64,000 bases of DNA, taken from assembly GCF_014696065.1 (NCBI RefSeq), contig NZ_JACJPL010000015.1:310001-374000 (forward strand), read 5' to 3'. Origin of the DNA: Leptolyngbya sp. FACHB-261 (GTDB taxonomy: Bacteria > Cyanobacteriota > Cyanobacteriia > FACHB-261). Each line of letters begins with the position of its first letter. Position 1 is the first letter of the stretch. Position numbers and translations under genes: made by a program. The notes beneath the pieces are model-generated. The model worked only from the letters and a program-made list of their open reading frames with translations, had not been told where the DNA came from and did no database searches. This document shows, in pieces, positions 56,086 through 58,100 of this stretch.

Positions 56086-56703
56086 ATGAGCGTTGCTAAG
56101 ATTCTGTGGCAGGAGAACGCCGATTTGGCTCGGGCCATCCTGGAGCATCGCTTTGTACAGGGCTTAGGTGATGGCACACTGCCACGGCCTAGCTTTGAAA
56201 ATTATATTGGTCAAGATGCTTATTTCTTAGAAGCCTTTGCCCGAGGCTATGCCCTAGCTCTAGCTCATAGCCCAGACCGCGAAGGGCTATATGCATTCGC
56301 AGAACTGCTGATTGGCGTCACCAATGAGCTTCGCCTCCACGCTAGCTATGCGGACCGTTGGGGTGTAGAACTCACCGACATTACCCCCAGCGAGGCGACT
56401 CTCGCCTACACCGACTTTTTGCTGGCGATTGCTGGAACGCGGACCATTGGTGAGATCTGCGCGGCGATGACGCCCTGCATGCGGCTATATGCCTTCTTGG
56501 GGCAGCAGTTAGCCGAGGCCAAACCAGACGCGCAGCATATCTATGCAGAATGGATCCACACTTACTCCGATCCCAGCTTTGAGGCTCTGGCGCAGCGACT
56601 GGAGGATTTGCTCGACCGTTATACCAATGATGGTCCGGTGCTGCGCTACATCTACCGGCGCGCCATGCAACTAGAGTTGGGCTTCTTTGAGTACAACTCC
56701 TAA
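56086..56703 (+). CDS. tenA: TenA family thiamin-related hydrolase
   Basis: 205 residues. Asp in YIGQDAYFLEAFARGYAL, nucleophilic Cys in AAMTPCMRLYAFLG and Glu in MQLELGFFEYNS are the three TenA active-site residues. TenA hydrolyses aminopyrimidine from degraded thiamin for salvage. The AGGAG site lies about 9 bp before the ATG. No TPP riboswitch is seen upstream; the spacer holds tandem repeats. Confidence 0.92.
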   Translation: MSVAKILWQENADLARAILEHRFVQGLGDGTLPRPSFENYIGQDAYFLEAFARGYALALAHSPDREGLYAFAELLIGVTNELRLHASYADRWGVELTDITPSEATLAYTDFLLAIAGTRTIGEICAAMTPCMRLYAFLGQQLAEAKPDAQHIYAEWIHTYSDPSFEALAQRLEDLLDRYTNDGPVLRYIYRRAMQLELGFFEYNS

Positions 56704-56751
56704 GATCTCCCAGTTCTTGAACTCGGGATTCTTGAGATTCAATTCTTGCCA

Positions 56752-56782
56752 AATGTAACGTTGGTTGGCCAAACGTTACATT
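56752..56782. repeat. Inverted repeat after tenA
   Basis: AATGTAACGTT (56752-56762) and AACGTTACATT (56772-56782), 11 perfect pairs around GGTTGGCCA. No T-run, so it may aid mRNA stability rather than terminate. Confidence 0.8.
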
Positions 56783-56820
56783 AACTGGAAATCCAGGGTC
56801 TCTGCTTGCCAACCGTCTGT

Positions 56821-56929
56821 AGCCTTGTTAGGCTGAGGGCTATGAAGAATTCTCAGTTCTGGTACAGCTTTACCTTTAGGAGCGCCACAGGGGTGCGCCA
56901 CAGGTCAGGCTGACGAAAATACCAGAACT
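56821..56929 (+). promoter_or_regulatory. Structured leader before aroF
   Basis: A closing helix AGTTCTGGTA (56855-56864) with TACCAGAACT (56920-56929) encloses a GC-rich multi-stem region, including GCGC/GCGC near 56882-56898 and GTCA/TGAC near 56904-56914. AGCCT/AGGCT (56821-56834) forms a small stem before it. With the terminator at 56942-56980 this has the layout of an aptamer plus expression platform. The class is not recognised. An independent small RNA is the alternative. Confidence 0.5.
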
Positions 56930-56941
56930 TCGTTAACACTG

Positions 56942-56980
56942 AACCCGCCTCCCCTAGAAATTTGGGAGGCGGGTTTTTTT
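56942..56980 (+). terminator. Intrinsic terminator in the aroF leader
   Basis: CCCGCCTCCC (56944-56953) and GGGAGGCGGG (56964-56973), ten perfect pairs (twelve counting A42/A43 with T74/T75), followed by seven T. It lies 94 bp before the aroF ATG, so it can either end a short upstream RNA or attenuate aroF. Confidence 0.93.
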
Positions 56981-57074
56981 GTGGTTCCAGTTCATTGCTC
57001 TAGTCCAGTTCTCTAAAAGTTCATTCTTCAACCGTTACTCACTCACTCTCACTCACTTAAACGGAGACCTCGCT

Positions 57075-58100
57075 ATGATTATCGTGATGGAAGCTGATGC
57101 TAGCGAACAACAGATTGCCGAGATTTGCGCCTACGTGCAAAATCTCGGCTTCGAACCGCACCGCTCTCAAGGCGTCGAGACAACAATTGTGGGCATTATC
57201 GGCGATGACCGCCGCCTAGATGCCAATGTCTTTCGCGCTCTTGAGGGAGTAGGGCAAGTGATTCCCGTACTGAAGCCCTACAAGCTCGCTAGCCGCGACT
57301 TCCAACCTCAGGACAGCCTGGTCGATATTGGCAACGGCGTGGTCCTGGGTGGACCTGAAGTAGCGGTGATCGCTGGTCCCTGCTCCGTTGAAGGAGAGCA
57401 AGCGATTCTGGAAGCAGCTCAAGCTGTCAAGCAGGCTGGTGCCGTTGCTCTGCGGGGCGGTGCCTACAAACCGCGCACTTCCCCTTACGGATTCCGGGGT
57501 TTGGGGGAAGTAGGGCTGGATTATCTGGCGTCAGCCAGAGTTGCTACGGGCTTGCCGGTTGTCACCGAGGTGATGTCGCCTGCTCAGGTTGAGTATGCCT
57601 GCGAACGCGCTGATGTCCTGCAAATTGGCGCTCGCAATATGCAGAACTACGATCTGCTGCTGGAAGTAGGCCGCACCCGCAAGCCTGTGATGCTGAAGCG
57701 GGGCCTGTCGGCCACGATGAATGAATTTCTGTTGGCAGCAGAGTACATCCTGTCTCAAGGCAACTGGCAGGTGATTCTGTGTGAGCGTGGCATTCGCACC
57801 TTTGAAACCCACACGCGCAACACGCTCGACCTCAATACCGTCGTCGCACTGAAGGGACTGACCCACTTGCCAGTCGTCGTTGATCCCAGCCACGGCACCG
57901 GCAGACGCGAACTGGTGTTGCCGATGGCGCGTGCTGCGGTGGCCTGTGGCGCAGATGGCATCATCGTAGAAGCTCATCCCATCCCAGATGCCTCCATCAG
58001 CGATGCCCAGCAGGCGATTAGCCCAGCGATGCTAGCGGAGCTGGTGAAGGATGTTAAAGCAATTAGCCAGGTCGTACGTAAGATGGCAGTAGTAGCGTAA
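57075..58100 (+). CDS. aroF: 3-deoxy-7-phosphoheptulonate synthase (DAHP synthase)
   Basis: 341 residues from ATG 57075 (CGGAGACC precedes it). The N-terminal ~90 residues form a ferredoxin-like/ACT-type regulatory domain ([20 protein letters not shown]). The DAHP synthase barrel follows with [32 protein letters not shown] and [13 protein letters not shown]. It condenses phosphoenolpyruvate and erythrose 4-phosphate to start the shikimate pathway. The terminator-ended leader suggests transcriptional control. Confidence 0.95.

Follow-up and report, generated by a model that had tools for sequence, protein, structure and literature searches.

The window analysed here is a 64-kb stretch (64,000 nucleotides) of the Leptolyngbya sp. 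FACHB-261 genome in which aroF, the gene for a DAHP synthase, the enzyme that opens aromatic amino acid synthesis with its first step, lies downstream of a TenA-like gene on the same strand. Between the two genes we find a short open reading frame rich in aromatic codons, a set of overlapping RNA stems and an intrinsic terminator. The features of the locus are listed below with positions counted from the first letter of the window.

56752–56782, strand not assigned: perfect 11-bp inverted repeat with a 9-nt spacer, a candidate element from a sequence scan
56835–56838, + strand: Shine–Dalgarno-like GAGG, from anti-SD duplex energy
56842–56913, + strand: leader peptide ORF encoding MKNSQFWYSFTFRSATGVRHRSG and a stop codon, from translation, uniqueness in the window and shuffling
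56855–56929, + strand: protector hairpin (1:2) with internal stems, from minimum free energy folds
56889–56955, + strand: antiterminator (2:3), from folding without the protector's 5′ arm
56941–56980, + strand: intrinsic terminator (3:4), a 13-bp stem and seven T, from folds
57075–58100, + strand: aroF, type I-beta DAHP synthase and proposed controlled gene, from NF006421 and TIGR01361

Genes and a putative leader peptide at the aroF locus

The aroF product is assigned to the type I-beta DAHP synthases by NCBIfam NF006421, at 477.5 bits over a cut-off of 335, and by TIGR01361, at 369 bits over a cut-off of 267.75. It is one of two DAHP synthases of the same Pfam family and different lineages in this genome. 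The other copy, outside the window (G000:C31:564149-565177), is the common cyanobacterial beta type, which is matched in 285 of 388 class genomes at E <= 1e-60 with 75–86% identity among the listed matches other than its own entry. The aroF of the window represents a second lineage that groups with four members of family f14 at support 100/96 in a tree of 87 proteins, and a class search at E <= 1e-100 recovers it in only 7 of 388 genomes, comprising itself, five f14 proteins and one match at 50% identity that the tree places with the common type. The genome carries 18 phycobilisome-family matches, several of them flanking the window to left and right on its contig (C15 160946-165560 and 469242-469664, with the window at C15:310001-374000), and among 14 control genomes only Synechococcus elongatus matches this family. 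Gene content thus identifies the host as a cyanobacterium and the window as part of its genome, not a stray contig.

The leader ORF of 23 codons (56842–56913) was overlooked in the preliminary description of the locus, as was the alternative antiterminator fold described below. Its codons at 56857–56877 read F-W-Y-S-F-T-F, placing a cluster for the end products of the pathway directly ahead of a DAHP synthase gene. Among ATG ORFs of 8–40 codons on both strands of the 64-kb window, the leader is the sole one to reach the threshold of our aromatic-leader screen, at least five F/W/Y in eight residues. Comparable aromatic ORFs arise in 9 of 3000 shuffles of 56704–56941 when an ATG start is required and in 27 of 3000 when ATG, GTG and TTG are all allowed. 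The ORF is preceded by its own putative ribosome-binding site, GAGG, at a short spacing of 3 nt, and the predicted anti-SD duplex of the leader (−6.1 kcal/mol versus −6.6 kcal/mol for aroF) makes its Shine–Dalgarno sequence about as good as that of the gene itself. We take translation of this short ORF to be probable.

A scan of 56600–57200 found no consensus promoter, and the best relaxed pair upstream of the leader is TTGAGA at 56732 with TGTAAC at 56754–56759 (9/12). The perfect inverted repeat at 56752–56782 overlaps this candidate −10 box and may, speculatively, bind a repressor of leader transcription. We rejected the repeat as the operator of a regulon, as a genome-wide search for the inverted-repeat pattern found no second copy.

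Leader RNA folding and a proposed attenuation switch

Folding of 56821–57074 gives a minimum free energy of −85.2 kcal/mol, compared with −67.45 ± 4.25 for 200 dinucleotide shuffles (z −4.18), none of which is as low. In this fold a 10-bp stem pairing 56855–56864 with 56920–56929 closes the domain 56855–56929 over internal stems, and a second stem of 13 bp pairs 56941–56953 with 56964–56976 around a 10-nt loop and runs into seven T at 56974–56980, so that an intrinsic terminator stands between the leader ORF and the gene. A simple terminator scan reported no sites, because its loop limit of 3–8 nt rules out the 10-nt loop present here. The hairpin and terminator are real features beyond chance expectation, and folding confirms the closed 10-bp domain, the terminator ahead of aroF and the 94 bp between its T run and the ATG at 57075 that the preliminary description had reported.

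The reading frame and the hairpin occupy the same nucleotides. The Gln-Phe-Trp-Tyr codons of the leader ORF are the 5′ arm of the hairpin stem, and the Phe-Trp-Tyr-Ser-Phe-Thr-Phe run lies on and immediately 3′ of that arm. This overlap bears on whether 56855–56929 could instead be the aptamer of a metabolite-binding riboswitch that recognises an aromatic amino acid or shikimate intermediate and acts through the terminator. A compact closed domain followed by a terminator ahead of a biosynthetic gene is the arrangement such a riboswitch would have, but one arm of its stem would then double as in-frame coding sequence for aromatic residues. The Rfam evidence points the same way. Searches with Rfam 15 at the gathering threshold returned no match to any family across the 64-kb window, riboswitch and T-box classes included, and we rejected a T-box; the preliminary description had likewise been unable to match the element to TPP, cobalamin or another known class. 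A permissive local search at the leader produced only weak matches to unrelated families. This domain has no conserved relative in the class, in contrast to riboswitches that are known to be widespread. We consider a riboswitch very unlikely.

A stand-alone small RNA ending at the terminator, with targets in trans and no link to aroF, would also show a stable fold and a strong terminator. No RNA family is matched above its gathering score, however, and the leader codons, the switch and the neighbouring gene suit control in cis. An independent small RNA is not needed to account for a short transcript, because the terminated leader of an attenuator would itself be one, and we regard this explanation as extremely unlikely.

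To describe the alternative fold we removed the 5′ arm of the protector and folded the RNA to 56955. The resulting antiterminator pairs 56911–56917 with 56929–56935, 56905–56908 with 56939–56942, 56895–56897 with 56946–56948 and 56889–56893 with 56951–56955. An available 5′ arm instead lets the protector hairpin form, leaving the terminator arm open. In a model limited to RNA that the ribosome has not yet reached, upstream pairing of the terminator's 5′ arm has a probability of 0.07 without a ribosome, of 0.63, 0.77 and 0.74 with a ribosome at Tyr8, Phe10 and Phe12, and of 0.11 with the ribosome at the stop codon. None of 600 dinucleotide shuffles reaches the observed switch score, and 3 of 600 synonymous recodings with a shuffled spacer do so. 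Judged by energy, the antiterminator is only modestly unusual: across three choices of 5′ boundary, 128, 67 and 17 of 1000 shuffles fold at least as stably. Within the downstream-RNA model the antiterminator thus excludes both protector and terminator and is released by a ribosome on strand 1; the whole-leader model is less clear-cut and the energies are modest. When the entire leader is folded and the nucleotides under the ribosome are kept unpaired, the terminator is the dominant equilibrium structure in every state (0.83), and with the ribosome at the stop codon the terminator arm also pairs with upstream sequence at 0.63–0.68. Because the terminator wins at equilibrium in this model, the switch would have to be kinetic, as is the attenuation switch of the trp operon. 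Together, these models support a two-state switch without proving it.

Sequence and computation establish the ORF and its codon cluster, the terminator, two folds that exclude each other and the identity of the gene. Our best reading of them is a transcription attenuator of the trp/phe type, ribosome-mediated and sensing aromatic aminoacyl-tRNAs (probability roughly 0.8). From an upstream transcription start, which we infer along with leader translation, stalling, the response to amino acids and the dominance of any one of the three, the leader RNA would be transcribed first and a ribosome would translate the 23-residue peptide. With plentiful charged Phe-, Trp- and Tyr-tRNA the ribosome would reach the UGA at 56911–56913 and cover the 5′ half of the antiterminator core, leaving the terminator at 56941–56980 to form and aroF off. 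With charged tRNA scarce, the ribosome would stall on the F-W-Y-x-F-x-F codons, which make up the protector's 5′ arm and continue beyond it, so that the protector hairpin could not form, strand 2 would pair with strand 3, and the antiterminator would take up the 5′ arm of the terminator and let polymerase continue into aroF. If no ribosome were present, the protector hairpin would form and transcription would stop. The preliminary description had proposed a riboswitch or attenuator controlling aroF that might sense an aromatic amino acid; the leader ORF, codon cluster and exclusive folds uphold the attenuator and support aromatic amino acid sensing by way of charged tRNA and the ribosome, and a ligand-binding riboswitch is not the favoured form.

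Aromatic leaders at other DAHP synthase loci

No match to the leader DNA turned up in phages or in any of the 388 class genomes except the window's own, leaving 387 without one. In a search of 59 relatives, none closer than class, the only hit other than the window was a marginal one of 26 bases (E 0.0075), and the matches to four plasmid records fall within the coding part of aroF. We scanned up to 350 nt upstream of cyanobacterial DAHP synthase genes for an ATG leader with five F/W/Y in eight residues. Such a leader was present at one of seven loci recovered by the search with the window-type aroF, the window itself, and at none of the six others; it was found at none of 30 loci of alpha-type enzymes, none of a further 20 alpha-type loci and none of 30 loci of the common beta type, one of which is the second copy of the window genome. 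The same genome also yielded no convincing leader at seven loci (three chorismate-binding, three HMGL-like and one prephenate dehydratase) or at the second DAHP synthase. One locus in this genome (L153) has a weaker ORF with 4 F/W/Y far upstream, and a chorismate-binding, trpE-like gene (L152) has a strong terminator about 130 nt before its start and no matching Trp-rich peptide. Either the device is rare in this genome or a screen by codon count misses others. The missing homologues, the lack of leaders at these other amino-acid genes and the absence of a consensus promoter count against the attenuator, which draws no support from conservation or covariation.

A leader common to no relative is what would be expected if the terminator were the ordinary terminator of the upstream TenA-like gene, with aroF transcribed from its own promoter after the terminator and the small ORF present by chance, and the terminator does sit 240 nt past the stop of this co-directional gene (56703). 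This explanation, however, makes both the aromatic ORF (9/3000 shuffles) and the two-state fold (0/600) accidents that happen to precede an aromatic-pathway gene, and the best promoter-like pair after the terminator scores 7/12 against 9/12 upstream, which is weak evidence. We therefore judge an ordinary terminator unlikely and retain the ribosome-mediated attenuator as the preferred reading.

Outside cyanobacteria, 80 loci of this enzyme family were fetched and 77 were kept after three were left out for short upstream sequence. An aromatic leader occurs at 9 of these 77 loci, compared with 9 of 1182 control stretches from the same loci, a contrast that counts in favour of the attenuator. Five of the nine leader-bearing loci belong to sister Woesearchaeota, and about four lineages are represented in all. 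In the five metagenome-assembled genomes labelled Woesearchaeota (L010, L011, L013, L014 and L015), a conserved small ORF ending ...IGFAFYRLFSS F[RK]YFFFYFK[HF] precedes the gene for the same kind of DAHP synthase; many differences among the five copies look like third-position changes, and a TTTAAATA box stands ahead of the ORF in four of five. From its sequence this ORF possibly encodes an aromatic leader peptide of DPANN archaea, a group in which attenuation by ribosomes would be unexpected. At two Oscillospiraceae loci (L064 and L071) the aromatic leaders MSNLRFAAQFYYFNYYFFYCRK and MSRNYFTAYFYFYFRS precede a terminator that lies about 20 nt ahead of the DAHP synthase, and both loci resemble additional attenuators of this type. 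At four loci of Thalassotalea and another member of the Colwelliaceae (L062, L076, L081 and L088), a conserved small ORF, MLTT[KR]VKSWFIWWLQPIYAG, lies about 33–99 nt upstream of the DAHP synthase.

Relation to known attenuators

A 2016 survey of leader genes states that no reliable data exist on attenuation in cyanobacteria (PMC4833913). Our search of the open-access literature found no report of a cyanobacterial leader-peptide attenuator. On balance we favour the view that the aroF leader is the first well-formed example in cyanobacteria, one that pools Phe, Trp and Tyr through consecutive F-W-Y codons and two further Phe codons, and that controls an additional DAHP synthase, the housekeeping enzyme of this genome having no such leader. 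If this is true, transcription and translation in this cyanobacterium are coupled closely enough for such switches. The locus offers a concrete and easily tested case for ribosome-mediated attenuation in the phylum, and a simple means of asking whether the coupling of transcription with translation there can sustain it. It may also act in a phototroph as a natural sensor for the supply of aromatic amino acids, with uses in shikimate-pathway engineering. The design itself is already known, and what is new is a phylum with no documented case in the open-access literature searched.

The trp and pheA attenuators of enterobacteria consist of a leader peptide, a protector, an antiterminator and a terminator. 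The logic proposed for the aroF leader is the same as in these systems (Rfam Trp_leader and Phe_leader), although the gene and phylum differ and the window leader is no member of the Rfam family by sequence or structure, scoring 20.1 bits against Phe_leader (RF01859) where the gathering score is 55. Closer in the gene controlled is Corynebacterium glutamicum, an actinobacterium whose aroF is described as having a putative leader peptide with Phe-Tyr-Phe (PMC4046766). Compared by description, both loci have an aromatic leader peptide within an attenuator-like transcript ahead of a DAHP synthase gene, with the difference that the C. glutamicum motif lacks Trp whereas the leader described here has consecutive Phe-Trp-Tyr and two more Phe. 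The uORFC-13-1 motif precedes aroF in Acholeplasma (PMC8632094). As described there, it is restricted to Tenericutes and is Phe-rich instead of combining F, W and Y, and it shares with the leader of the window a small Phe-containing upstream ORF closely followed by a terminator ahead of aroF.
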